In this document: positions 3,758 to 53,604 of the stretch, piece after piece | How positions within the stretch are numbered: position 1 is the stretch's first letter | Layout: the number at the start of each line of letters is the position of its first letter | Source: Gammaproteobacteria bacterium | Lineage (GTDB): Bacteria > Pseudomonadota > Gammaproteobacteria > Steroidobacterales > Woeseiaceae | Reading direction: 5' to 3' | Length of the DNA stretch: 56,145 nt | NCBI GenBank assembly: GCA_029863125.1 | Contig: JAOTWB010000012.1 | Span: 1-56,145 of the forward strand | Program-made: the position numbers and the translations under genes | Notes under the pieces: generated by a model | What the model was told of the DNA's origin: nothing | Databases searched by the model: none | What the model saw: the letters and a program-made list of their open reading frames with translations, nothing else

Positions 3758-4836
3758 CGCCACAGCCTCCGGTGCCAGCCGTTTTGAAAAGCCAGCAGAC
3801 CCAGCGTCAATAACAGCGCGCAACCGTGCACCCACCAGAGCCCCAGCGACGGAGAAATCGTCGCTTGTTCGATCCACGCTTTTGCCGCGCTCAGCATGTT
3901 GAGATAAATGATGAAGACGAGCAGACCGATCGCAAGGCGGCCATAGCGGCCCGAGCGCGGCTGACTCCTGCTCAGAGGAACGGCGAGCATTGCGAGTATG
4001 ATCGTTGCCAGTGGAATGCTGACGCGCCACTGCATCTCGGCAATGTGTTCGAGCTCGCGGGAATTCCTCAGACGCGAGAATGACATCGCACGCGGCCTGG
4101 GTTCGGCGGTGCGCAGGCTCGGCAGCTGGTAAGGAATACCGTGCTCGGCGAATTCGACAACCCGAAACCGCGTCGTTCCCGGGATACCCTCGTAACGTCT
4201 GCCATTGTGCAGCACGAGCATGCGGATATTCGTGTCATCAGATGCAAGCTGCTCACCGCGCTCGGCAATCACGACCTCGACCCGTCCGTCGTCGGCCAGG
4301 CGCTGCATGAACACTTTCTCCATCTCCCCTTTGTCCGTCACACGTTCGCCGTAGACAACAGCCTGATCCGGCCCGAAAACCGTGAATCGCCCGGGCTCGA
4401 TACTCGCCAGGTCGGCCTCGCGGCGAGCTTCCGCACCAATGCGATCAATTGCTGTCAGCGCCAGGGGGGCGCCTTCAACCGAAAGCCAGGCAACGCCCGC
4501 GGCCAGCGGGACCAGCAGCCACATCATCGGCCGGTAGATACCCGATGGCCCGACGCGACAGGCCATCATTGCGGGCATTTCACTGTCCCGGTACAAGCGC
4601 CCCAGGGCCAGCATGATCGACAGGAACAGGCCGATCGGAACGAGAATCGTCAGGTACTGTGCTGCCGACAGGCCGATAACGTCGAATGCCGCATCCTTGG
4701 GGAGCTTGCCCTTGGCCACGTCGCCCAGGACCCTCGCAAACTGGTTTGTCAGCAGGATCAGCAGCAGGACCATCGTGACCCCGAACCAGGTCATGGTGAT
4801 CTCACGAAAAATGTACCGATCCAGAATTCGCGTCAT
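3754..4836 (-). CDS. lptF: LPS export ABC transporter permease LptF
   Basis: 360 residues beginning with the family-typical M-T-R-I-L-D-R-Y-I-F-R-E. It is the second permease of the LptB2FG lipopolysaccharide exporter. The sequence shows an N-terminal membrane block (about 15-125), a periplasmic jelly-roll domain (about 130-265) and C-terminal helices (about 270-355). Translation is coupled to lptG by a GTGA overlap. It is divergent from pepA, with 103 bases between starts, as in Escherichia coli. Confidence 0.96.
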   Translation of the reverse strand: MTRILDRYIFREITMTWFGVTMVLLLILLTNQFARVLGDVAKGKLPKDAAFDVIGLSAAQYLTILVPIGLFLSIMLALGRLYRDSEMPAMMACRVGPSGIYRPMMWLLVPLAAGVAWLSVEGAPLALTAIDRIGAEARREADLASIEPGRFTVFGPDQAVVYGERVTDKGEMEKVFMQRLADDGRVEVVIAERGEQLASDDTNIRMLVLHNGRRYEGIPGTTRFRVVEFAEHGIPYQLPSLRTAEPRPRAMSFSRLRNSRELEHIAEMQWRVSIPLATIILAMLAVPLSRSQPRSGRYGRLAIGLLVFIIYLNMLSAAKAWIEQATISPSLGLWWVHGCALLLTLGLLAFQNGWHRRLWR

Positions 4837-4866
4837 CGGTGTCCGGGAATGGCGTGGCTGCGTGCA

Positions 4867-4883
4867 GCTGAAACGGTTAGACT
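4867..4883 (+). promoter_or_regulatory. Candidate promoter element upstream of pepA
   Basis: The 17-mer GCTGAAACGGTTAGACT ends in a TAGACT -10-like hexamer, 57 bases before the pepA ATG. A near copy (15 of 17 identical) lies 33 bases before proS. No convincing -35 is visible. The promoter role is inferred from position and recurrence. Confidence 0.35.
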
Positions 4884-4939
4884 ACCGCTTTTATTTTGTT
4901 CGTGACAGTCCCGCACCCACAGCAAGGCACGCAGAATCT

Positions 4940-6436
4940 ATGGAATATTTCACCTCTACGAGCAAACCCTCGCGACGAGCCGTTGATTGCGTCATCATCG
5001 GCATCTATGAACGCGGCAAACTGGGCGTCGCTGCAGACGACATCAATTCTGCCAGCAAAGGCGAGGTTCGCCGGCTGATCAAGAGCGGCGATCTTTCGTC
5101 AGAACTGGGTCAATCCGCGGTGCTGACAAAACTCGCCGGTGTCAAAGCGCATCGCATCGTTGTGGTCGGCCTGGGTAAATCGAGCGCTTTCGGCGCCCGG
5201 CAGTTCCGCAAGGCCGTCGCGGCTGCGGCAACAGTTATCACGAAGACCAGGGCGAAACAGGTGTTGAATGGCCTGATGCTTGAGACCGTTGCCAAGACCA
5301 GCCGTTACTACCTCGCACGGCACACCGCCGAAGCCTTCGGTGAAATACTGTATCGTTTCAATAAAATGAAAAGCGGTCGTCAACCGGCAGCCAGTCCTTT
5401 GAAAAAGATCGGCTATGCAATTGCAAAGCAAGCGGATGCGGCTGACATTACGCGCGGCGCTAAACACGGCGACGCAATTGCGGCGGGCGTCTCGCTGGCC
5501 AAAGATCTCGGCAACCTGCCGGCGAATGTCTGTACGCCGAGCTACCTTGCGCGTACTGCTAAAAAACTTGCGACAGGCAACGCCAAGCTGACAACCAAAG
5601 TGCTCAACGAGGCAGAAATGAAACGTCTCGGCATGAGATCCTTATTGTCGGTCAGCGCCGGCACCGAGGAGGCGCCCAAACTCATCGTAATGCAATACAA
5701 GGGAGGCGGCAGCAATAAGCCCGTCGTGCTCGTCGGCAAAGGCGTCACTTTCGACGCCGGCGGTATTTCCCTCAAGCCCGGCCCTGGCATGGACGAAATG
5801 AAATTCGACATGTGTGGCGCAGCCGGCGTCATCGGTGTTATGGCCACGGTGGTTCAGCTCAAGCTGCCCATCAACCTCGTTGTCGTGGTACCCACCGTCG
5901 AGAACATGCCGAGCGGCACTGCAACCCGGCCCGGCGATATCGTCAAGAGCATGTCGGGACAGACCATTGAAGTCTTGAACACCGATGCCGAGGGAAGACT
6001 GATACTTTGTGATGCCCTCACCTATTCGCGGCGTTTCAAGCCAGCTGCAGTTGTTGATGTAGCCACCCTGACCGGTGCCTGCGTCATCGCCCTCGGCGCT
6101 CACCGCTCGGCCGTCATGAGTAATGACGATGCGCTTCGAGCCGAATTGGTTGCCGCGGGCGAACGCTCGGAAGACCTCGCCTGGCCCATGCCGCTCGGCG
6201 AAGAATACGCCGAGCAACTGAAAAGCAATTTCGCCGACATGGCCAATATCGGTGGTCGCCATGGCGGCGCCGTCACGGCGGCGTGTTTTCTCGAAAAATT
6301 CGCCGATGGACTGACCTGGGCGCACATGGATATTGCCGGGACGGCATGGAACAGCGGCACCAAGAAAGGCGCAACCGGACGGCCGGTGCCACTACTGGCG
6401 GAGATGCTGCTCGCGCGCTGTCGCGCCCTGCCCTGA
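4940..6436 (+). CDS. pepA: Leucyl aminopeptidase PepA (M17)
   Basis: 498 residues; E. coli PepA has 503. A manganese/zinc aminopeptidase that trims N-terminal residues from peptides; in enterics it also acts as a DNA-binding architectural factor. The C-terminal catalytic domain carries V-G-K-G-V-T-F-D-A-G-G, L-K-P, the D-M-C-G-A-A segment and the family signature N-T-D-A-E-G-R, so the metal ligands and catalytic Lys/Arg are all present. The ATG at 4940 gives the usual M-E-Y-F N-terminus; reading upstream of it only crosses the promoter region. It heads the conserved pepA-holC-valS run. A second M17 protein lies at 52096-53604. Confidence 0.96.
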   Translation: MEYFTSTSKPSRRAVDCVIIGIYERGKLGVAADDINSASKGEVRRLIKSGDLSSELGQSAVLTKLAGVKAHRIVVVGLGKSSAFGARQFRKAVAAAATVITKTRAKQVLNGLMLETVAKTSRYYLARHTAEAFGEILYRFNKMKSGRQPAASPLKKIGYAIAKQADAADITRGAKHGDAIAAGVSLAKDLGNLPANVCTPSYLARTAKKLATGNAKLTTKVLNEAEMKRLGMRSLLSVSAGTEEAPKLIVMQYKGGGSNKPVVLVGKGVTFDAGGISLKPGPGMDEMKFDMCGAAGVIGVMATVVQLKLPINLVVVVPTVENMPSGTATRPGDIVKSMSGQTIEVLNTDAEGRLILCDALTYSRRFKPAAVVDVATLTGACVIALGAHRSAVMSNDDALRAELVAAGERSEDLAWPMPLGEEYAEQLKSNFADMANIGGRHGGAVTAACFLEKFADGLTWAHMDIAGTAWNSGTKKGATGRPVPLLAEMLLARCRALP

Positions 6437-29712: not shown

Positions 29713-29851
29713 TATTGCTTGGGCAAGAGCGAATTGACGAATTGGCGTTACGTAAGCATCCAGTGAATATTATGGCAATCACCAAGCGGCCGCTCGCGAG
29801 ACCGGCTGGTGTGTCGTGTTTGCGAAATGCAGTCGACGGCGGTTGCGCGAT

Positions 29852-32290
29852 ATGAGCTTCCTCGCGTCATTTCGCTCCGATCAGATCCTGTCGCAGCTCA
29901 TAGCGGAGCAGGATGCCGCATCGCCCTCGGCACAAAAGCTCGTCGACAAACTGAAGAAAGCCGGTAACCGGGCCGTGCCGAAAATCATCGACGCCCTCGC
30001 GCTGTCTGACAAGACGCACACGATGGTACTCGTCGATATCCTTGGCGAACTCGTCAACGACAAGAACCTGAACATGTACCGGGAAGGGCTCGCCGACGGT
30101 AATGAACGTGTCGTATCGGGCACCGCCTGGGCGCTCTCCAGCAGCACCGACTATAACCCCAACAGCCTGCTCGATTTTTTTGATGACGATGAAGTATCGA
30201 AAGCGGCGCTGATCGACGTGCTGCGCGTGCACAAGCAGGACCTCAGTGTGCACGAACTTCTGCGACGCGCCTACGAGTGCGAAACGAAGGAAAAGGCGGC
30301 GATCTTCAGGATCATCGAGGAAATTATCAAGCCCGAAATGGTACCGGACTTGATCGCTCGAATGGGCGGCAAGGACCCGGTTATCAAAATGCACTTGATG
30401 AACCTCCTGGCCCAATTCGACAAACCCGAAATCAATCATGCGTTGGAGATTCAGCTCAAGGATCCGAACAAGATGGTCCGTAGCGCCGCGCTGGCGGCAC
30501 TGGGCGCGCGCAGCGGCAATGTCAATATCGCAAAAGTCGCGGAAGTCCTTACCGACCCGGACCTCGACGTACAAAACAAAGCCGTCGACGTGCTCATCAA
30601 AGCCAATCATCCGGACACGATCCGTTACCTCGTCACCGCACTGAAAGACGAATCGGAATATGCGCGACGAGCGGCGGTCGAAGTACTCAATGAAATCGGA
30701 GACGTCAATTCCGTCAAGGACCTGCTGGATGCGATCAAAGACGACGATTGGTGGGTTCGCTCGCGCGCCGGCGATGCGCTGGCCGAAATCGGCGGCCCGA
30801 GGGTTGTCGATTCGGTTGTCACCCTGATCAATGACGAAGATGAAGACATTCGTCGCACCGCGATCGAGATTCTGAATACCACCAAGGATCAGCGCGCGGT
30901 CGACCATCTGATCAAGGCAACGGACGACAGCGACTGGTGGGTTCGCGAGCGCGCCGTCGATGCGCTATCGAAAATTGGCGACACGAAAGCGCTGCCAAAA
31001 CTCGAAGCCATGCTCGGCCAGGACAGCAAAACGGACACAGTTGTGATTCGGGCACTGGCGAAGCTGGGCAGCCACAAGCACATCAACAAGATCCTGCCGA
31101 TGCTGCAGCGACCGGAACGCGAAATCCAGATCGAAGCCATCAAGGCGGTGGCGCAGCTCGCGGACGATGCGAACGCCGATACGATTCGTAATCTGCTGAA
31201 GAAGATCAAGAATTCTGAAGACGCCACCATCATTAACGTTGCCGACAAAGCCCTAAAAGACCTCGACGCCCGTTACTCCGAAACCGTCCTCGAAGAAAAC
31301 GTGCGCGCGAAAAAGATCGCTTCGCATACCAAGACGCTGTTGCTCGAAAATGACGAGCTCGACAAACTGCTGGGCGCCCAGGCGGCCCAGATTGCGGAAG
31401 CCGCTAAACCGAAAGTATCGGAACAGGAGGCCGCATCCGGCCCGCGGATCCTGGACATTTCCAAGCTCAAACCGGGCGACATTATCGAAGGACGCTACCG
31501 GTATATCGAGAAAATCGGTAAGGGCGCGTTCGGCACCGTGCTGCTCATGGAAGACGAGGTCGTTGACGAGCAGCTGATTCTGAAGTTCTTGAATCCGAAT
31601 GTTTCCTCGGACGAGGAAATGATGAAGCGTTTCGTGCATGAGCTTCGTTACTCTCGCAAAATTACCCACCGCAATGTGATTCGTATATACGACTTCCTGA
31701 ACCTGCAGGGCTGTTATGCCATTTCGATGGAGTATTTCCCGTCGCACACCTTGTCGGGCGAAATTCCCGACGGCAAACCGATGGAAATGAAGAAAGTACT
31801 GCAATACTCGCGCGATATTGCCGCGGGAATGCACGTGGCTCACCAGGCGGGCGTCATTCACCGTGACCTCAAGCCGGCAAATATTCTGGTCAACGACGAA
31901 GGACTTCTCAAGATTGTGGATTTTGGTGTTGCAGCGGCGGCCAGCAGCGGCGACACTCAGCTCACCAAAACCGGCTACGTGATCGGGTCACCCAAATACA
32001 TGGCACCTGAACAAATTCTGGGCAAGAAAGTGGACGTAACCGCCGATGTCTACAGCGTCGGCGTCATTATTTACGAAATGGCAACCGGTATACCGCCATA
32101 CAGTCGCGGTGACCATATGTCGGTGATGTACCAGCACGTGCAGGGTAAGGCGAAACACTGCCAGGAAATCAACCCGGACATCAGTGATGAATTCGCGGAT
32201 CTCATCGTCAAGGCCATGTCGGTCGATAAATCAAAGCGTTTTCAATCGATGGCCGAACTGACTGAAGCGCTCGACGCAATTACAGGCTGA
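29852..32290 (+). CDS. HEAT-repeat protein fused to a Ser/Thr protein kinase
   Basis: 812 residues from ATG 29852, no signal peptide or membrane segment, so cytoplasmic. Residues about 1-490 are tandem HEAT/PBS-like helical repeats of about 31 residues; two of them, about 61 residues apart, share D-W-W-V-R-x-R-A-x-D-A-L-x-x-I-G (about 298-315 and 359-376). A linker (about 490-545) with an acidic/Ala stretch leads to a Hanks-type kinase: glycine loop G-K-G-A-F-G (556-561), lysine about 578, H-R-D-L-K-P-A-N with Asp 672, D-F-G Asp 690, then A-P-E; all catalytic residues are present. The activation segment has several Thr and Ser residues. The stop is 8 bases before the first PilT ATG, implying one operon. 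I infer a kinase whose HEAT scaffold binds a partner and which acts on pilus retraction; substrate unknown. Confidence 0.88.
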   Translation: MSFLASFRSDQILSQLIAEQDAASPSAQKLVDKLKKAGNRAVPKIIDALALSDKTHTMVLVDILGELVNDKNLNMYREGLADGNERVVSGTAWALSSSTDYNPNSLLDFFDDDEVSKAALIDVLRVHKQDLSVHELLRRAYECETKEKAAIFRIIEEIIKPEMVPDLIARMGGKDPVIKMHLMNLLAQFDKPEINHALEIQLKDPNKMVRSAALAALGARSGNVNIAKVAEVLTDPDLDVQNKAVDVLIKANHPDTIRYLVTALKDESEYARRAAVEVLNEIGDVNSVKDLLDAIKDDDWWVRSRAGDALAEIGGPRVVDSVVTLINDEDEDIRRTAIEILNTTKDQRAVDHLIKATDDSDWWVRERAVDALSKIGDTKALPKLEAMLGQDSKTDTVVIRALAKLGSHKHINKILPMLQRPEREIQIEAIKAVAQLADDANADTIRNLLKKIKNSEDATIINVADKALKDLDARYSETVLEENVRAKKIASHTKTLLLENDELDKLLGAQAAQIAEAAKPKVSEQEAASGPRILDISKLKPGDIIEGRYRYIEKIGKGAFGTVLLMEDEVVDEQLILKFLNPNVSSDEEMMKRFVHELRYSRKITHRNVIRIYDFLNLQGCYAISMEYFPSHTLSGEIPDGKPMEMKKVLQYSRDIAAGMHVAHQAGVIHRDLKPANILVNDEGLLKIVDFGVAAAASSGDTQLTKTGYVIGSPKYMAPEQILGKKVDVTADVYSVGVIIYEMATGIPPYSRGDHMSVMYQHVQGKAKHCQEINPDISDEFADLIVKAMSVDKSKRFQSMAELTEALDAITG

Positions 32291-32298
32291 GGCCGGCT

Positions 32299-33393
32299 AT
32301 GGCTCGTATCGACGCATTCCTGAAACTGGGACTGGCACAAGGATGCTCCGACGTGCATCTCGCGGTCGGTGTGCCGCCGATGCTGCGTATGAACGGCGAC
32401 CTGATGCCCATCAAGTTCCGGCAGCTGTCCGATACGGAACTCGAAACCTACATCACCGAAGTGCTGACAGCGAAACAAAAAGAACGCCTTGCAGAAGGGC
32501 ACGACCTGGATTTTTCCTATGTCGGTGATGAAAGCGGCCGCTTCCGCGTCAATGTCTTTCGTAAAGAAACCGGGATCGGCGCCGTATTCCGGCACATTCC
32601 GGGGGATGTCCCGAAACTCGACGATCTCAAAGTTCCGCCGATCCTGAAAAAGTTCTGTGACTATCACCAGGGCATGGTGCTGGTCACGGGGTCAACCGGT
32701 ACCGGTAAGTCGACCACGCTCGCGGCGATGATTGATCACCTTAACGAAACACGCAACCTGAACATCATCAGCCTGGAAGACCCTATCGAGTTCGTGCATC
32801 CGAGCAAGAATTGCCAGGTCATCCAGCGCGAGGTCGGTACACACGTGAAGAGTTTTGCCGACGGCGTCCGCTCCTCGATGCGTGAGGATCCCGACGTCAT
32901 ACTGGTGGGCGAGCTGCGTGATGCCGAAACCATCTCCATGGCAATGACGGCCGCGGAAACGGGCCATCTCGTGCTTGGCACCCTGCATACTACGGGCGCC
33001 GTAAAGACCATTGACCGAATCATCGATGCGCTGCCCGGCGAGCTCCGAGAGCAGACCAAGGGATTCCTATCGATGAGCCTCAAAGCCGTCGTTACGCAGG
33101 TGTTGGTAAAAACGCCGGATGGGCGCGGCCGGCGCGCCATCCTCGAGATCCTGGTGAACAGCCGGGCGATTTCGAAGCTGATAATGACCGACCAGACGCA
33201 CCAGATACCCTCGCAGCTCACGACCGGCAAGAACGTCGGTATGCAGATCATGGACCAGGCGTTGCTTGACGCGATTCGCGCCAAGGAAATCGACGCAGAT
33301 GATGCGATTCGCTACGCCGCGGACAAGAAGAAGTTCCAGCGATTTGTCACCGACACGGAAATGGTCCAGACGCTGGACGTCAGCGGAGGTTGA
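32299..33393 (+). CDS. PilT/PilU-family pilus retraction ATPase (first copy)
   Basis: 364 residues. N-terminal PAS-like domain (about 1-100) and RecA-like secretion ATPase core: Walker A G-S-T-G-T-G-K-S-T (Lys about 137), Asp box I-S-L-E-D-P-I-E-F, Walker [16 protein letters not shown] and His box G-H-L-V-L-G-T-L-H-T. PilT hexamers depolymerise type IV pili. The region that reads A-I-R-N-L-I-R-E in PilT is A-I-S-K-L-I-M here, and T-P-D-G-R-G-R-R-A followed by M-D-Q-A-L-L and a charged tail recalls PilU. I call it a PilT/PilU hybrid-like paralog. It follows the kinase by 8 bases. Confidence 0.9.
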   Translation: MARIDAFLKLGLAQGCSDVHLAVGVPPMLRMNGDLMPIKFRQLSDTELETYITEVLTAKQKERLAEGHDLDFSYVGDESGRFRVNVFRKETGIGAVFRHIPGDVPKLDDLKVPPILKKFCDYHQGMVLVTGSTGTGKSTTLAAMIDHLNETRNLNIISLEDPIEFVHPSKNCQVIQREVGTHVKSFADGVRSSMREDPDVILVGELRDAETISMAMTAAETGHLVLGTLHTTGAVKTIDRIIDALPGELREQTKGFLSMSLKAVVTQVLVKTPDGRGRRAILEILVNSRAISKLIMTDQTHQIPSQLTTGKNVGMQIMDQALLDAIRAKEIDADDAIRYAADKKKFQRFVTDTEMVQTLDVSGG

Positions 33394-33401
33394 GGTAAGT
33401 T

Positions 33402-34469
33402 ATGGCCACGATCGACAGCTACCTTCAACAGGCGCTCAAGCTTAATGCCTCCGACCTGCATTTTGTTTCGGGCGACCCGGTCCGGGCGCGCGTGCACGGC
33501 AACCTGACCGTCATGGTGGAAGAGCCACTGCTGACCGAGAAGGCCGAGGAAGCTGTTTTCGAAATCATGGACGGCATAACGAAAAAAGCGTTTGACGCCG
33601 ATGATGCCGCCGATTTCGCCTATGAGATCCCCGACGTTTCCCGCTTTCGGGTGAATGCTTTTCGCCATCTGAACGGCATTGGCGCGATTTTTCGCGCGAT
33701 TCCTTCCAGCGCCCTGACGCTGGTGGACCTTGGCATGCCCAAGGTCATTCACGATCTCTGCAAGTACACGCAGGGAATGATTCTGGTGACCGGCAAGACC
33801 GGGTCCGGCAAGTCCACGACACTCGCGGCCATGATCGACGCGATGAACAAACGTCTCAAAGGCCATATACTGACTATTGAGGATCCGATCGAGTTCGTTC
33901 ACAAGGCCCAGGGCTGTCTCATGAGCCAGCGTGAAATTGGCGTGCACAGCCCGAGCTTCGCGGAAGCCCTGCACTCGGCGATGCGTGAGGATCCGGACGT
34001 TATCCTGGTTGGCGAAATGCGAGACCTTGAAACGATCAGCATTGCCGTCACGGCGGCCGAGATGGGTATTCTGGTCATGGGCACGCTGCATACCAACGGG
34101 GCTGCACAGACTGTCGACCGGATCATCAACTCGTTCCCGGCCGACAAGCAAAGTCATATTCGCACCATGATCTCGACCTCACTGAGAGGCGTGGTTTCGC
34201 AGCAGCTGCTCCCCACTTGCCACAAACCCGGCCGCGCGGCGGCGCTGGAGATAATGATCAATACGCCAGCTGTCTCGAACCTGATTCGGCAGGGCAAGCT
34301 TGATCAACTCGAAACAGCCATTCAGAGCGGCGGCAACATCGGCATGCGAACAATGGACGGCGCGCTGATGGAGCTCGTCGAGAAAGGCTGGGTTTCGGCT
34401 CAGGAGGCTTACCAGCAGGCCAACAACAAGACGAAGTTCGAGAGCCTGAAGGAAGTCGAACAAGGCTGA
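33402..34469 (+). CDS. pilT: PilT-family type IV pilus retraction ATPase (second copy)
   Basis: 355 residues, same fold as the upstream copy, with which it aligns end to end (Walker A Lys at about 137 in both, G-K-T-G-S-G-K-S-T). Asp box I-E-D-P-I-E-F, Walker [16 protein letters not shown] and His box G-T-L-H-T-N-G-A are intact. The C-terminal [11 protein letters not shown] resembles the A-I-R-N-L-I-R-E region of true PilT more than the first copy does. It starts 9 bases after the first copy, so the two probably form a retraction pair like PilT/PilU. No other pilus gene is in the window. Confidence 0.9.
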
Positions 34470-34515: not shown

Positions 34516-36519
34516 ATGCCCCGAAAGCGAAAAATTCTCGTAACGAGCGCCCTGCCCTATGTCAACGGATCGCCCCACATGGGCCATCTCGTCGAGTACC
34601 TGCAAACCGATATCTGGGTTCGCTTTCAGAAGCTGCGAGGGCATGACTGCATTTACGTTTGCGCCTCCGACGCGCACGGCACGCCGATCATGCTCAAGGC
34701 GCGCGAACTCGGCATTACGCCGGAGGCCCTGACCGAAGGGTATGCAGCGGAATTCGTCAACGATTTCCGCGATTTCGGCGTTGACTTTGACAACTACTAC
34801 ACGACGCACTCGCCCGAGAATGAAGCGCTCGTTACTGAGATGTTCAAAGTTTTAAGTGACAACGGCGATATCTTTACCCGGACCATCGAGCAATCTTACG
34901 ATGAAAAGGAGGGCATGTTCCTGCCGGATCGCTTTGTGCGCGGCACCTGTCCGTTTTGCAGGGCAGAAGACCAGTATGGCGACGCCTGCGAAAACTGCAG
35001 CAAGACCTATTCGCCCGCCGATTTGATTAATCCTGTTTCGGTCATTTCGGGCACGGCCCCGGTAAGGCGCAAATCCGAACATTACTTCTTCAAGTTGAGC
35101 AGCTATGGCGACCGCTTGCGGCGCTGGATGAGCGAGGCAGAGCTGGACAACAACGTTGTCGCAAAGCTCGAGGAATGGTTCGAGGCCGGCCTGCAGGACT
35201 GGGATATCTCCCGCGACGCCCCCTACTTCGGATTTCGTATCCCCGGTACCGACGACAAGTATTTTTACGTCTGGCTGGACGCGCCGGTTGGCTACATGGC
35301 GAGCTTCAGGCATCTTTGCGAGCGACGCGACGATCTTGATTTCGACGACTACTGGCGGCCGGGCAGCGCTGCAGAGGTCTACCATTTCATTGGCAAGGAC
35401 ATCATGTATTTCCACACCTTGTTCTGGCCGGCGGTACTGGCGGGCGCCGGCTTTCGCACGCCGACCAGCGTGTTCGTGCACGGATTTCTGACCGTTAATG
35501 GTCAGAAGATGTCGAAATCTCGCGGCACTTTTATCAAGGCCCGAACCTACCTGGACAATCTTGATGCCAGCTTCCTGCGCTATTACTACGCGGCAAAACT
35601 CGGTCCGACGATCGAAGACATCGATCTGAACCTCGAGGACTTCATTGCGCGCGTCAATTCGGACCTCGTCGGCAAACTCATCAATATCGCCAGCCGCTGC
35701 GCCGGATTTATCAGTAAGCGTTTCGATGGCCGGCTGGCCAATCGCTTGCCCGACGCTGCGTTGTTCGACGAGTTCGCGAATGCTTCCGAGACGATCGCAA
35801 AGCATTACGATCGTCGCGAGTACTCGAAAGCTATGCGCCTGATTATGACGCTCGCAGACCGGGCTAACCGTTATATTGACGACAACAAGCCGTGGCTCAT
35901 GGTCAAGGACGAGAACAAGCTAACCGATGTGCAGCTCGTCTGTACGCAGGGTCTCAATATGTTCCGCAGCCTTATGATTTATCTGTCGCCGGTGATTCCT
36001 GCCGTCGCCGACGATGCCCGTGCGTTTCTCAGCGAAGACGGCTGGCTCTGGCAGGATGCTTCGTCACCGTTACTCGATGCAACGCTGCCCGACTTCCAAC
36101 CACTGCTGACGCGCGTGGAGCCGACACAGGTTCAGCGCATGATCGAACAATCCCAGGAGAGCACACCGGTGCCACAAGCTGAAACAAATAGCGCAATGAT
36201 CAGCATCGACGAATTCATGAAAATCGACCTGCGAATTGCTCGCATCGAAAAAGCCGAACCTGTCGAAGGCGCCGATAAATTGCTTGCTTTGACGCTCGAC
36301 ATCGGCGATTCGACGCGGCAGGTCTTTGCGGGGATCAAAGCAGCTTACGATGCGCCGAGCCTCGTCGGCAAACACGTGGTGGTTGTCGCAAATCTCACGC
36401 CGCGGAAAATGCGCTTCGGCGTTTCGGAGGGTATGGTGCTCGCGGCCGGCCCCGGCGGCGAGGATATCTTCCTGCTCTCGCCCGACGACGGCGCGGAACC
36501 CGGCATGCGGGTCAAGTAA
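34516..36519 (+). CDS. metG: Methionine--tRNA ligase MetG
   Basis: 667 residues. Class I synthetase with H-M-G-H at 21-24, zinc knuckle cysteines (C-P-F-C and C-E-N-C near 140-160), K-M-S-K-S at 331-335 and an anticodon-binding helical domain. The last about 110 residues form the EMAPII-like tRNA-binding domain ([14 protein letters not shown] near 560), which also drives dimerisation. This is the full E. coli-type layout. The rnfA gene starts 16 bases after the stop. Confidence 0.97.
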
Positions 36520-42665: not shown

Positions 42666-43520
42666 ATGAGCGACCTACAGCCACAGTACCCAGTCCACGG
42701 TGCGGGCCTCGGCCTGCGTCGGCCTATTGCCGATACACTCATGGCAGACCCCCCCGTCGACGTCGACTTCATGGAAGTGGCACCCGAAAACTGGATACAC
42801 GTCGGTGGCGCGCTGGCCCGAAAACTTCGCTTCTTTACCGAGCGCTACCCGTTTCTCATTCACGGCCTGTCGCTGTCGATCGGCGCGCCATCCGCATTGA
42901 ATGAACGGCTCGTCAGAGACATCAAGGATTTCATGGCGGAACACAATATCCGCCTGTACTCGGAGCACCTTAGTTTCTGTGGTGACGACGGCCAGCTCTA
43001 TGACCTGATGCCCATTCCCTTTACCGAGGAAGCCGTGCATTACGTATCCCGACGCGTGCGCCGCGTACAGGATATCCTCGAGCAACGCATTGCGCTCGAA
43101 AACGTTTCCTTTTATGCGCCGATCGATTCATCGATGAGCGAGAAAGAGTTTCTGCTCGCCGTCCTTGAAGAATCCGACTGCGACCTGATGCTCGACATCA
43201 ACAATATCGTCGTGAACAGCATTAATCATCGCTACGATGCGAACGACTTTCTCAACTCGATGCCGGCTGAACGAATCCGGTACTTTCACCTTGCCGGGCA
43301 TCATGTCGAGGCCGAGGATTTGCGCATCGATACGCACGGCTCGGCCGTCGATGCTCAGGCGTGGCGGCTCCTCGAAGACGCGTACGCACGCTTCGGGCCG
43401 GTTCCGACACTGCTCGAGCGTGACTTCAACTTTCCACCCATGGACGAATTGCTCGATGAAGTGCGCCGCATCAAGCAGCTTCAGCTGGCGACAGACAAGC
43501 GGCGGACCGCCAATGCCTGA
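42666..43520 (+). CDS. DUF692 multinuclear non-heme iron oxygenase (MNIO), BufB-like
   Basis: 284 residues, TIM-barrel. Metal-binding positions look intact: Glu in E-V-A-P-E-N-W, His in I-H-G-L-S-L, S-E-H-L-S, L-E-N-V-S, D-I-N-N, H-L-A-G-H, D-T-H-G and E-R-D-F-N. MNIOs modify Cys or Asp residues of ribosomally made peptides; BufB with BufC acts on the precursor BufA (DUF2282), and a DoxX gene often follows. Here BufC-like and DoxX genes follow, but the 77 bases upstream cannot encode a precursor. The stop overlaps the next ATG by 8 bases. Confidence 0.9.
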   Translation: MSDLQPQYPVHGAGLGLRRPIADTLMADPPVDVDFMEVAPENWIHVGGALARKLRFFTERYPFLIHGLSLSIGAPSALNERLVRDIKDFMAEHNIRLYSEHLSFCGDDGQLYDLMPIPFTEEAVHYVSRRVRRVQDILEQRIALENVSFYAPIDSSMSEKEFLLAVLEESDCDLMLDINNIVVNSINHRYDANDFLNSMPAERIRYFHLAGHHVEAEDLRIDTHGSAVDAQAWRLLEDAYARFGPVPTLLERDFNFPPMDELLDEVRRIKQLQLATDKRRTANA

Positions 43521-44864: not shown

Positions 44865-46178
44865 ATGGGAACCGAACAGGCAAGCAGTCTCCGCCGAGAC
44901 ATCGGTTTTTTCGGCGCGTCGTTTCTCGTTCTCAACGCAATGATTGGCGCCGGTATTTTCGCGCTGCCGGGAAAGGTCGCCGTCAATGCCGGCCTTCTCA
45001 GTCCGTGGCTGTTCCTCGTCGTCGGCGTGCTGTTCCTGTCCGTTGTACTGACATTCGCAGAACTCGCGAGCTACTACGATAAGACGGGTGGCCCGGTAAT
45101 CTACGCGACCGAAGCTTTCGGTCCATTGGCCGGATTCAGTACCGGCTGGGTGATCTTTCTCGCGCGCATGACGGCGTTTGCCGCCAATGCCAACGTCATG
45201 GCGACCTACCTCGCATCGTTGTCCGATGTTTTTGCCGGCGACCTCGCCCGGGGAACTGTAATCAGCGTCGTGACGATCGGCCTGACATGGGCCAATGTGC
45301 TCGGCGTTCGTGACGGCGTGCGAACCATGGGTGTGTTCACGGTCCTCAAAGTCACGCCGCTGATACTCATGGTACTGCTCGGGTTTCAGCATGTAACGGG
45401 CAGTACTCTGCTGCCAGGCGCTCCGTTCGTCGTTGATCAGCTCGGCAGCACGACGCTGCTCCTGATCTACGCTTACGTGGGTTTTGAGACGATCGCCGTA
45501 ACGGCAGGCGAGACCTCGCAGCCGCGGAGCGTACTGCCGAGAGCCCTCGTAGGCACCGTTATCGGGACCGGCCTTCTGTATTTCGTCATCGTACTGGTAT
45601 TCGTGTCGATCATCTCGGCCGACCACTACGCGAGCGCCACGCTGGTCGACGTGGGCAGAGCACTGGCCGGACCCGCCGGTGCTCTCGCCATTACGCTGGC
45701 GGCCGTATTCTCGATCGGTGGCAACCTGGCCGGCTCCATGATCGCGGCGCCCCGGCTCATTTTCTCGCTGGCGGAAAATCGCCTTCTGCCGCAGTGGTTC
45801 GGCCACGTGCACGCCAGGCACGCCACGCCGGACCGCTGCATTTTGCTCATGGGTGGCATGGCCCTTGTCATGGCGCTCACGGGCTCATTCGTAGCACTGG
45901 CAATCGCCAGCTCGGTTGCGAGACTGCTGGGCTACCTCATCTGTATCGCGTCATTGCCGGCGATACGCCGCAATGCAAGCGCCGAGGTTCGCCAAAACGC
46001 CTATCGACTCAAAGGCGGATATACGATTCCCGTGATCGGCTTTGCCGTCTGCATCTGGCTGCTCATGCAGTCGAAAACAGAATCCTGGATTGCCGTTTCG
46101 ATACTGATCGCAATCGGTGCCGTACTCTACGGTATCGAAACGCTCACCGGTATTCGAGACAACGGCGGGAAGAATTAG
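44865..46178 (+). CDS. APC family amino-acid permease
   Basis: 437 residues, about 12 membrane helices. The helix 1 unwound motif N-A-M-I-G-A-G-I-F-A-L-P-G near residue 24 is the APC substrate site; a second recognisable patch is Y-A-Y-V-G-F-E-T near 205. Broad amino-acid transport is likely but the substrate is not. The ATG at 44865 is used; a TTG one codon earlier is possible. It converges on lpdA with the stops overlapping (46175-46178). Confidence 0.88.
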   Translation: MGTEQASSLRRDIGFFGASFLVLNAMIGAGIFALPGKVAVNAGLLSPWLFLVVGVLFLSVVLTFAELASYYDKTGGPVIYATEAFGPLAGFSTGWVIFLARMTAFAANANVMATYLASLSDVFAGDLARGTVISVVTIGLTWANVLGVRDGVRTMGVFTVLKVTPLILMVLLGFQHVTGSTLLPGAPFVVDQLGSTTLLLIYAYVGFETIAVTAGETSQPRSVLPRALVGTVIGTGLLYFVIVLVFVSIISADHYASATLVDVGRALAGPAGALAITLAAVFSIGGNLAGSMIAAPRLIFSLAENRLLPQWFGHVHARHATPDRCILLMGGMALVMALTGSFVALAIASSVARLLGYLICIASLPAIRRNASAEVRQNAYRLKGGYTIPVIGFAVCIWLLMQSKTESWIAVSILIAIGAVLYGIETLTGIRDNGGKN

Positions 46179-47902
46179 CGCCGCTTCGGGATGTAAAGGT
46201 CCGTTAGCGTTCCTTCGAACGCTTCCGCAGCCATACCCACGGTCTCCGCCAGGGTCGGATGCGGATGAATCGTCAGGCCGATGTCCGCTGCATCGGCGCC
46301 CATTTCGATGGCCAGACCGATCTCTGCGACCAAATCGCCTGCATTGGGGCCGACTACGGCGCCGCCCAACACGCGCTTGGTCTGCTTGTCGAACAGCAGC
46401 TTAGTGAGTCCTTCGGAACGTCCCAGCGCCAGCGCGCGGCCACTCGCGGCCCACGGAAACTGCGCTTTCTCGTACTCCACGCCCTGCGCTTTTGCGTCGA
46501 GCTCTGTCAAGCCGACCCACGCGATTTCCGGGTCCGTGTAGGCTACGGACGGAATCGTGCGCGCATCAAAATAACTTCTCTCCCCTGCCGCAACTTCGGC
46601 AGCGACTTTGGCTTCGTGCGTCGCCTTATGCGCCAGCATCGGTCCACCGGCGAGGTCGCCGATCGCGAATATATGAGCAACGTTGCTGCGCATCTGCTTG
46701 TCGACGGCAATGATGCCGCGCGAATCGACATTGACGCCGGCATGCTCGGCGTCCAGCAAACCGCCGTTCGCCTTTCGTCCCACCGCCACGAGTACTCGAT
46801 CGTAAACGCCGACCGACGGCGCTTTTTCGCCTTCAAAACTGACTTCGATGCCGGGCACCGTGGCGCGCATGCCGGTTACCTTGGTTGACACCATGATAGC
46901 TTCGTAGCGTTTCCTGATGATCTTCAGGAAAGGCCGGAGCAGGTCCGGATCCGTACCTGGCATCAGCGAATCGGTCAGCTCGACAACGCTGACGTCAGCG
47001 CCGAGCGCACTGTAGACACAGGCCATTTCCAGGCCGATGATGCCGCCGCCGACGACAAGAAGCCGCTTGGGCAGAGGCGCAAGTTCAAGTGCGCCGGTCG
47101 AATCGACAATGCGCGGATCCTCCGGCAGACCCGGCAACATCATGGGTTCGGAACCCGCGGCGATGATGCATTGCTCGAAATCGACGGTTTCGTCATTGTC
47201 GAGCTGCAGGCGATGAGCGGCCGTAAACCGGGCCGTCCCCCGGATGACCCGAACTTTACGCTGCTTCGCCATGGTCGACAGACCGCTCGTCAGCTGCCCA
47301 ATGACCTGGTTCTTCCATTCGCGCAGTTTTTCCGCCTCGATCCTGGGTTTGCCGAACGTAACGCCATGCTCAGCCATGGCGGCCGCTTCGTCGATGACCT
47401 TGGCGGCATGCAGCAGTGCTTTCGAGGGAATGCAACCGACGTTCAGGCAGACCCCGCCGAGAACGGGTGATCGCTCGATGAGAATGACATCGAGACCCAG
47501 GTCAGCTGCGCGGAATGCGGCCGTATAGCCACCGGGCCCCGCGCCGATCACGACCAGCTTAGCCGAATGTGTTGCATCGCCCTCCTGCGTCCTTGTCGCG
47601 ACAATCTCCGGCGCCGACATCTTGCGGGTCGATTCGATATTTTCGACCGGCACTTCGGATCCAGCGCCAGCGGCTTCTATCGTCACGACGGCGGAGCCTG
47701 TCGAGACTTTGTCGCCGACCTTGACGTCGACCGAAACAACGGTCCCGGCCTGGCTGGCGGGGATGTCCATCGAGGCTTTGTCCGTTTCCAGCGTGAGCAG
47801 CGGATCTTCGACCGCTACGCTGTCACCTGGCGCGACCAGGATCTCGATGACCTCGACATCTTCAAAGTCACCCAGGTCGGGAACCGTCAGCTGCACTCTC
47901 AC
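46175..47902 (-). CDS. lpdA: Dihydrolipoyl dehydrogenase with N-terminal lipoyl domain
   Basis: 575 residues; plain E3 has about 470, the excess being an N-terminal lipoyl domain (about 1-75) with the lipoyl Lys in E-T-D-K-A-S-M-D and an Ala/Glu linker. The FAD domain starts with G-A-G-P-G-G-Y-T near 118, the redox disulfide is in G-G-V-C-L-N-V-G-C-I-P, and the C-terminal H-P-H-P-T-L-A-E supplies the catalytic base. It reoxidises lipoamide to make NADH in the pyruvate dehydrogenase complex. The GTG start shares one base with the aceF stop (TAGTG). Confidence 0.95.
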   Translation of the reverse strand: MRVQLTVPDLGDFEDVEVIEILVAPGDSVAVEDPLLTLETDKASMDIPASQAGTVVSVDVKVGDKVSTGSAVVTIEAAGAGSEVPVENIESTRKMSAPEIVATRTQEGDATHSAKLVVIGAGPGGYTAAFRAADLGLDVILIERSPVLGGVCLNVGCIPSKALLHAAKVIDEAAAMAEHGVTFGKPRIEAEKLREWKNQVIGQLTSGLSTMAKQRKVRVIRGTARFTAAHRLQLDNDETVDFEQCIIAAGSEPMMLPGLPEDPRIVDSTGALELAPLPKRLLVVGGGIIGLEMACVYSALGADVSVVELTDSLMPGTDPDLLRPFLKIIRKRYEAIMVSTKVTGMRATVPGIEVSFEGEKAPSVGVYDRVLVAVGRKANGGLLDAEHAGVNVDSRGIIAVDKQMRSNVAHIFAIGDLAGGPMLAHKATHEAKVAAEVAAGERSYFDARTIPSVAYTDPEIAWVGLTELDAKAQGVEYEKAQFPWAASGRALALGRSEGLTKLLFDKQTKRVLGGAVVGPNAGDLVAEIGLAIEMGADAADIGLTIHPHPTLAETVGMAAEAFEGTLTDLYIPKRR

Positions 47903-51996: not shown

Positions 51997-52095
51997 CACG
52001 GCTTCGTTGCACCGGGCGGCGCGATTCGCTAGTGCGGCCGCCATCTTCGGGGTTTGTGCCGTGAGCGTCAAGCTCACGGTGGAGAATTAGATCGC

Positions 52096-53604
52096 ATGAC
52101 AACTGTCGTCCCTGACATCCATGATATTCGTATCTTTCAAAAGCCTGGCCGTGTCACCGGCCGGGTTGCCGACTCGGTCGATCAGTTACTTTTGATACTA
52201 CCTGCCAGACCGACCGTGGCGCATTTTCGACAGCTTCCACAGGGCAGCAAATTACAGGGTGTTTATCGAAAACGCGTAGCCGGCTCCACGCCGGCATTCG
52301 CGACGCATCTCGCCAACAAAAAGCAGACCCTGCTCGTTGCCGGCACGATTAGCGGTGATGCCAGCGCCTTCGAACAGCTGACGCTGGGCCGCAAACTCGT
52401 CGCTGCGGCAACCGGCCAAAAGGCCGGCGTTCTCGGCATTTGTGCCGTTGGATTCGAACCCGATGCGCAGGCAACCCTTGTCAACAACGTGCTCGCAGCG
52501 GCCCTGGCTGCGGGTCTGAAGCTGCCCACGTTTAAAAGCAAAGCGGCGCCCGCCAAGATCAAGAGCATCCGGCTGCTCGGCCTCAGCAAACCGCTCGACA
52601 CCAGCCGGACGGAGGCCGAAGCGAAGGGCAACAATCTCGCGCGCTGGCTTACCTCACTGCCGCCAAACATGCTGGATGCCGTTCGCTACGCGGATGTCGT
52701 CAAAGACCTGGCAAAAGAGCGCGGCTGGCAGTACAAGCGTTTTGTTACGAAGGATCTCAAGGCGCTCGGTGCCGGTGCGTTCCTGGCGGTTGCTCAGGGT
52801 AATGATGATGACAGTGCCGGCATCGTTCGTCTGCGTTATCGGCCGGGCGCTAAGAATGCGAATGCCGATCTGAGCCTGGTCGGGAAAGGCATCATTTTCG
52901 ACACGGGTGGCACCAACCTGAAGCCATTCGCGTCGATGCTCGACATGCACGGCGACATGCAGGGCAGCGCCGTCGCGCTCGGCACGTTCCTGACCATTTC
53001 CGAGCTCGAGCTGCCTCTTGCCGTCGACTGCTGGCTGGCACTGACAGAGAACCGCACCGGTCCGAATGCCTATAAATCGCAGGACGTCGTCACGGCCGCG
53101 AACGGCAAGACCATACAGATCATTCACACGGATGCCGAAGGACGCCTCGCGCTCGCGGATGCGCTGGTCCTCGCGAGTCGCGAGCACCCGGGGCTAATTA
53201 TTGACTACGCGACGCTAACCGGCACCTGCGTCAGTGCGATCACGAGCCGATATTCCGGCGTGTTCACCAACCGCGCCGAATGGCATTCTCGGCTGAAGAG
53301 AGCCGGCCGGCGCTCCGGCGAGCGCGTATGGCCGTTCCCGATCGGCAAGGAATTCCTGACAGAGCTGAAAAGCGACACGGCCGACTTCATGCAGTGCCTG
53401 CCGAAAGGCGCAGGTGACCATATCCTCGCGGCCAGCTTCCTCGCCGAGTTCGTCGAGAACGATATTCCCTGGGTACACCTCGATCTGAGCGCTGCTGATC
53501 GCGCTGGCGGTCTTGCCCATGTCGGCTCCAAGTTCACAGGATTCGGCGTCCGCTACACGATAAGCGTTATCCTTGACGAGAAACTATTCAAGGCAAGCCC
53601 GTAA
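52096..53604 (+). CDS. M17 leucyl aminopeptidase family protein
   Basis: 502 residues, the second M17 peptidase here and clearly diverged from PepA. The catalytic domain keeps V-G-K-G-I-I-F-D-T-G-G-T-N-L-K-P, G-D-M-Q-G-S-A and H-T-D-A-E-G-R; the usual N of N-T-D-A-E-G-R is H and the usual M-K before the D-M is M-H. By analogy with lens aminopeptidase, the metal ligands (Lys, Asp, Asp, Asp, Glu) and the catalytic Lys and Arg are all present, so activity is likely. Substrate preference is unknown. It is divergent from aceE and followed at once by rnt. Confidence 0.88.
   Translation: MTTVVPDIHDIRIFQKPGRVTGRVADSVDQLLLILPARPTVAHFRQLPQGSKLQGVYRKRVAGSTPAFATHLANKKQTLLVAGTISGDASAFEQLTLGRKLVAAATGQKAGVLGICAVGFEPDAQATLVNNVLAAALAAGLKLPTFKSKAAPAKIKSIRLLGLSKPLDTSRTEAEAKGNNLARWLTSLPPNMLDAVRYADVVKDLAKERGWQYKRFVTKDLKALGAGAFLAVAQGNDDDSAGIVRLRYRPGAKNANADLSLVGKGIIFDTGGTNLKPFASMLDMHGDMQGSAVALGTFLTISELELPLAVDCWLALTENRTGPNAYKSQDVVTAANGKTIQIIHTDAEGRLALADALVLASREHPGLIIDYATLTGTCVSAITSRYSGVFTNRAEWHSRLKRAGRRSGERVWPFPIGKEFLTELKSDTADFMQCLPKGAGDHILAASFLAEFVENDIPWVHLDLSAADRAGGLAHVGSKFTGFGVRYTISVILDEKLFKASP

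Follow-up and report, generated by a model that had tools for sequence, protein, structure and literature searches.

A HEAT-repeat Ser/Thr kinase and a separate lineage of paired PilT-family ATPases as a very likely dedicated kinase–motor module in Gammaproteobacteria

A stretch of 56,145 nucleotides from a Gammaproteobacteria bacterium (assembly GCA_029863125.1, contig JAOTWB010000012.1), hereafter called the window, carries a gene for a protein kinase built on HEAT repeats (K) directly in front of two genes for ATPases of the PilT family (T1 and T2). This arrangement raises the question of whether the kinase is dedicated to the two motors. To our knowledge, when and how hard cells retract type IV pili is an open question. 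Most of the control known for these pili targets the extension motor or runs through histidine-kinase chemosensory systems. This general picture is in line with the accessible portion of PMC11656802. A kinase gene that accompanies its own private motor pair, genome by genome in a sample of the class, allows direct Ser/Thr phospho-control of retraction to be tested with few proteins. From the data presented below, K, T1 and T2 very likely form a dedicated kinase–motor module, because the kinase and motor genes are strictly co-inherited, the gaps between them in the window are short, and the catalytic residues of the kinase are conserved. The genes concerned are as follows.

29852-32290, forward strand: K, HEAT-repeat/Hanks-type Ser/Thr kinase, 812 amino acids from the ATG (open reading frame (ORF), Pfam, alignment of 30 orthologues)
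32299-33393, forward strand: T1, PilT-family ATPase, 364 amino acids (ORF, TIGR01420, tree)
33402-34469, forward strand: T2, second PilT-family ATPase, 355 amino acids (ORF, TIGR01420, tree)
34516-36519, after T2: metG (ORF list)

The open frame of K begins at a GTG at 29816, and the ATG at 29852 was chosen as the start because the 30 orthologues carry a near-invariant Met at this position. Gaps of 8 bases separate K from T1 and T1 from T2, and 46 bases lie between T2 and metG. In both 8-base gaps, a TGAGG that overlaps the upstream stop codon is a possible ribosome-binding sequence. An earlier note on this DNA, made without database searches, had described an 812-residue HEAT-kinase with the full Hanks catalytic set, followed by two PilT-family genes. 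This description is borne out by Pfam matches, by residues invariant in the 30 orthologues, and by scores for both ATPases above the TIGR01420 curated cut-off. The note had also counted gaps of 8 and then 9 bases, of which the first is correct and the second is in fact 8. The assembly that holds the window comprises 2.49 Mb and is 73.9% complete, and the nearest named loci belong to metagenome-assembled genomes (MAGs) of Woeseiaceae.

The earlier note had proposed a genome-neighbourhood search, and had allowed that the neighbourhood might be unique to this genome or that homologues of the kinase might lie mostly away from pilT. This search was run on the best 80 of 329 named loci that encode a relative, 78 of which carry a kinase match that extends past residue 700, and neither outcome was observed. 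Of the named loci, 70 extend 1.3 kb or more beyond K, and in every one of them a PilT gene resides next to K on the same strand; in all 67 that extend 2.5 kb or more, both PilT genes follow K. Among these 80 closest loci the sole isolate is Povalibacter uvarum DSM 26723 (L087), which carries the cassette; the others are MAGs.

The cassette also recurs across the class, as evident from a sample of 274 genomes in which K, called at E 1e-60, is present in 37. Thirty-nine loci from this sample were read (some genomes twice), including 38 with the kinase end and 36 with enough downstream sequence. PilT is next to K in 33 of these 36, and the misses are L136 (genome G154), L209 (G265) and L205 (G163). 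When a profile of 23 T1 rows was searched over the 274 genomes, T1 was found in 35 at 613-685 bits, and the next score was 452 (T2, then canonical PilT). A set comparison reveals that these 35 genomes comprise every one of the 37 K-positive genomes except G154 and G265, whose kinase matches are 28-32% identical. The kinases of the latter two genomes (L136, L209 and L210) belong to a divergent HEAT-kinase group, 27-32% identical, that occurs without T1 or T2; the best PilT-family genes there score 313 and 316 bits with a T1 query, versus 482 for the T1 of G163. Because G163 keeps both genes in unlinked positions, the genome-by-genome match between K and T1 holds even where linkage has been lost. 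The recurrence of the cassette across the class exceeds chance; the sampled genomes are related by descent and we claim no p-value, and Fisher values, which take no account of this kinship, were set aside. A mirror-tree correlation (Spearman 0.71-0.82) lacked a control and carries no weight here. As an aside on the divergent kinases, a ClpB-like gene (860 amino acids, by sequence reading) precedes the one at L136 on the same strand, and an 866-residue ORF of similar size likewise precedes the one at L209.

K matches HEAT_2 at 192.5 bits (cut-off 27.7) and Pkinase at 179.6 bits (cut-off 31.7) in Pfam, and is divided into the following parts.

30602-30976, forward strand: HEAT core of K, residues 251-375, the conservation peak among 30 orthologues
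31292-31471, forward strand: variable linker from the HEAT arm to the kinase, residues 481-540, where none of the 60 positions reaches 95% conservation
31484-32248, forward strand: kinase domain of K, residues 545-799 (Pkinase match 549-799)

The HEAT core is as well conserved as the kinase domain: a level of 95% or more across the 30 orthologues is reached at 39 of 125 positions in the core and at 55 of 255 in the kinase domain. The HEAT repeats that flank the core reach this level at 7 of 250 positions before it and 2 of 105 after it. Within the core, twin DxDWW motifs (residues 297-301 and 359-363) are invariant, and we propose that the core with these motifs might serve as a docking face. 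Also invariant are K578, E597, D672 (HRD), N677, D690 (DFG), P719 and E720 of the APE motif, and T705 in the activation loop. Judged by its catalytic residues, K qualifies as a Hanks-type Ser/Thr kinase. An AlphaFold2 model built from the 30-orthologue alignment (mean predicted local distance difference test score (pLDDT) 84.3, predicted template modelling score 0.50) consists of helices arranged in pairs between residue 2 and about residue 475, followed by a kinase fold, and pLDDT falls below 50 at residues 489-503 and 516-531.

T1 and T2 score 420.9 and 436.2 bits, respectively, against the PilT/PilU family model TIGR01420 (NCBIfam; cut-off 319.1), both are matched by T2SSE (Pfam), and both keep the Walker A, Walker B and His boxes. 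The possibility that they are simply the ordinary PilT and PilU of the genome was rejected, both by the three additional PilT-family genes that the window's own genome carries on contig C50 and by phylogeny. In a maximum-likelihood tree of 100 proteins (27 T1, 25 T2 and 48 canonical rows; midpoint root for drawing only), T1 forms one clade (100/100) and T2 another (100/97), the two are sisters at 100/99, and they stand apart from the 48 canonical rows, outside the PilT clade and outside the PilU clade of this tree. At 100/100, T1 and T2 group with PilT proper (19 rows) in a split that separates them from the remaining 29 canonical rows. Genomes carry 3-7 PilT-family genes each at E 1e-60 (20 genomes searched, 18 of them T1-positive), and according to the tree PilT proper is present besides T1 in 17 of the 18 T1-positive genomes checked, with G085 as the exception. 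The additional genes of the window's own genome (G000:C50:71362-74636) are those for PilT, PilU and a third family member in a row, and three PilT-family genes in a row are also found in G017, G044, G056, G062, G126, G127, G154, G167, G263 and G265.

Two short features distinguish the members of the motor pair.

33349-33351, forward strand: codon for Thr351 of T1, in the tail motif F-V-T-D (alignment of 119 T1 sequences)
34269-34292, forward strand: AIRNLIRE-like AVSNLIRQ of T2, residues 290-297 (sequence comparison)

T1 has no good AIRNLIRE motif, reading AISKLIMT at this site, and is PilU-like in this respect. According to the portion of PMC6762196 available, PilU lacks the AIRNLIRE motif and functions only when PilT is present; by analogy, T2 may have T1 as its dependent partner. 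Only T1 has the C-terminal tail with the FVTD motif. Among the 119 T1 sequences aligned (near-copies included), position 351 is Thr in 102, Ser in six, and Ala, Gly, Pro or Asn in four; of the seven sequences that could not be parsed, six have Thr by eye and one is truncated. This position is a gap in all 19 canonical PilT rows. On the strength of this pattern, Thr351 is a candidate phospho-acceptor.

The window's lineage carries the minimal form of the cassette, K-T1-T2, and most genomes with K and T1 show a larger module. Its further partners, namely a protein of about 155 residues (U155) and FHA, cyclase and HD-domain proteins, are new relative to the earlier note, as are the separate clades of the motor pair. 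U155 is encoded in 27 of the 274 class-sample genomes, all of which are positive for K and T1. Two members that were scanned score 20.7 and 22.4 bits against DUF6812 (Pfam; gathering threshold 27.1), and some homologues in a large database carry a precomputed PF20660 label. Fold searches with U155, which chiefly probed its C-terminal barrel, return weak Sm/Hfq-like matches only. FHA or cyclase-FHA-like genes adjoin 20 of 32 readable cassettes of relatives, the window's own not being among these 20. A cyclase-FHA gene lies beside the cassette at seven loci, and a gene for an FHA-GAF-HD protein is located divergently upstream at six. Searches of G000, G167 and G017 for the FHA-GAF-HD protein at E 1e-20, which had no positive control, gave no match. 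All 6 rows of the FHA protein share the linker sequence EPTMF, which is similar to the phosphorylated segment ETTSVFRADF of OdhI/GarA as given in the accessible part of PMC8546545. The set of upstream ORFs, A1, holds 15 rows out of 19 ORFs. L118 and L119 (read as antisense frames) and L127 (unrelated) were dropped, the short-start upstream ORF of L124 was left out, and L120, L121 and L131 were started later. Elsewhere in the window's own genome, unlinked to the cassette, another kinase domain lies near an FHA-domain match (G000:C40:20089-22188).

In the scheme that we favour, K-T1-T2 would form the heart of a conserved signalling cassette that serves two specialised retraction motors of type IV pili. 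These motors would have arisen by duplication, probably on the PilT side of the family, with T1 in a PilU-like and T2 in a PilT-like role beside the canonical PilT/PilU of the cell. The HEAT arm of K, via its twin DWW hot-spot, would dock the motor pair or a protein that recruits it, and the kinase domain would then phosphorylate a motor threonine (Thr351 of T1 being the candidate), an associated FHA adaptor, or both. Phosphorylation would gate how T1/T2 engage the base of the pilus. FHA proteins of many lineages might recognise the phospho-threonine and relay it to nucleotide-cyclase outputs or to HD-domain outputs, the latter read as HD-GYP enzymes of the cyclic di-GMP type. U155 would be an accessory part of the module, and the window's lineage would keep K-T1-T2 alone. 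The docking, the substrate, the gating of retraction and the direction of the effect are what we infer. The likeliest of the readings considered is that K sets retraction by phosphorylating a motor or an FHA adaptor, and we judge its chances to be about even. Slightly below that stands a broader proposal, in which a HEAT kinase, co-inherited motors, dual-barrel U155 and FHA readers that lead to signals of the cyclic AMP or cyclic di-GMP type would together make up a phospho-threonine control module for pilus retraction, a Ser/Thr-kinase counterpart of Pil-Chp in Gammaproteobacteria.

Several observations weigh against this scheme. K and the T1-T2 pair of G163 are on separate contigs, and G085 has a stop codon inside its U155 match and another inside its T2 match, so the cassette of that genome may be decaying. 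In a phylum sample whose composition was shown in part, K was detected at E 1e-60 in 1 of 398 genomes, the window's own. Outside the class sample the kinase looks rare, which we read as a narrow distribution, and the system looks restricted to some lineages. Thr351 is replaced by Ala, Gly, Pro or Asn in 4 of 112 parsed T1 sequences. No FHA or cyclase gene is adjacent in 12 of the 32 readable cassettes, the window's included, and for this reason an adjacent FHA reader cannot be essential. The DWW motifs were at one point regarded as an exclusive signature of motor-linked kinases, and this claim had to be softened. Both motifs are present in the unlinked kinase of G163, and the exact motif is absent from the three kinases of G154 and G265. 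However, the kinase at L136, in a genome without T1 or T2, has the degenerate forms EWWGKERA and DDWQVRDRA. Because divergent kinases of this kind keep degenerate forms, the hot-spot is not confined to kinases that go with the motors. Finally, PilB of the type IVa pilus, which occurs exactly once above its curated cut-off in 24 of 29 K/T1-positive genomes tested, is absent at that cut-off from the other five (G035, G044, G048, G131 and G178), three of which are at least 95% complete. With no PilB above the cut-off, T1/T2 may serve another filament in those five. Judging from these gene contents, the module likely acts on the type IVa pilus, though perhaps not in every genome that carries K and T1.

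An alternative to motor phosphorylation is that T1 and T2 are the input. The HEAT arm would sense the state of the motors (retraction load or ADP state), the motors would be scaffold partners and not substrates, and the output of the kinase would pass to FHA proteins, cyclases and HD-domain enzymes, such that surface sensing would read retraction. The cyclase-FHA and FHA-GAF-HD genes beside cassettes fit this arrangement, as does the near-constant company of canonical PilT, because a cell with canonical PilT may not need T1/T2 to power retraction. However, more than a third of readable cassettes lack an adjacent gene for an output of this kind, and residue 351 in the T1 tail is nearly always Thr or Ser. 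We consider this alternative, the main rival, rather unlikely. More doubtful still is the proposal that T1/T2 drive another type IV filament or a secretion-like machine, and that K regulates that apparatus. The five PilB-negative genomes speak for it, as does the distance of T1/T2 from canonical PilT in the tree (stem length 0.73, then 0.94 for T1). Against it, neither a second extension ATPase nor a pilin gene could be recognised in the cassettes, whose neighbours are mostly unlabelled, the great majority of genomes tested have their single PilB, and both motors are full members of the PilT/PilU family. Passive linkage, in which neighbours are kept by descent without a shared function, is very improbable and was rejected: the mrp and metG flanks are also conserved at the named loci of the window's relatives, that of Povalibacter among them, so local conservation alone says little, yet only L220 and L221 among the class-sample loci have both flanks (a 27% MRP-like match near the cassette of L134 was set aside in this tally) while K-T1-T2 persists, and K and T1 match genome by genome with two exceptions, even in G163.

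A module in which K acts on its own motor pair would combine known parts, among them a separate motor lineage, in a way not yet described. The earlier note knew of no described system of this kind, and this holds as far as the open-access literature shows: no description of a HEAT kinase with PilT is present among the matches listed there, most subscription journals lying outside that literature. The closest relatives by composition are PilT and PilU themselves, which resemble T1/T2 in family score, in Walker and His boxes, in the tandem arrangement of two ATPases, and in that one partner keeps at least a form of the AIRNLIRE motif while the other has no clear one. In contrast, T1 and T2 form their own sister clades, are additional to canonical PilT, and have a kinase gene in front. 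PknG with OdhI/GarA in Actinobacteria is alike in placing a Hanks-type kinase on a helical-repeat scaffold (TPR there, HEAT here) and in having as partner an FHA protein with a Thr motif. However, as far as the available part of PMC8546545 describes it, that system differs in repeat type and domain order and its partners are metabolic regulators rather than pilus motors, and no FHA gene adjoins the window's cassette. Stk1 of P. aeruginosa is a Ser/Thr kinase that likewise affects twitching. Its loss weakens twitching and lowers the levels of assembly proteins, and its authors consider that the kinase might phosphorylate proteins involved in pilus adhesion or contraction (PMC8560001). The portion of that paper available gives Stk1 neither a HEAT scaffold nor a dedicated motor pair, and the term PilT has 0 occurrences in it. 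Pil-Chp and cyclic di-GMP control also couple pilus motors to cyclic AMP and cyclic di-GMP, but through histidine kinases and response regulators, and the accessible text of PMC11656802 contains no control of motors by a Hanks-type kinase.

The cassette provides a lead on function for proteins that, where they bear a name at all, are called just HEAT repeat protein or serine/threonine kinase, and for the unnamed U155 family and the extra PilT paralogues. Other genes of the window were observed in passing. The product of 46175-47902 (reverse strand) is a pyridine-nucleotide-disulphide oxidoreductase with an N-terminal lipoyl domain, read as the dihydrolipoamide-dehydrogenase type, and its gene adjoins E2- and E1-type genes of a pyruvate dehydrogenase complex. 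Two M17 aminopeptidase genes are present in the 56 kb, at 4613-6436 and 52054-53604 (both forward strand). A gene at 42666-43520 (forward strand) gives a strong match (335 bits) to MbnB/TglH/ChrH, a family of enzymes that modify precursors of ribosomally synthesised and post-translationally modified peptides.

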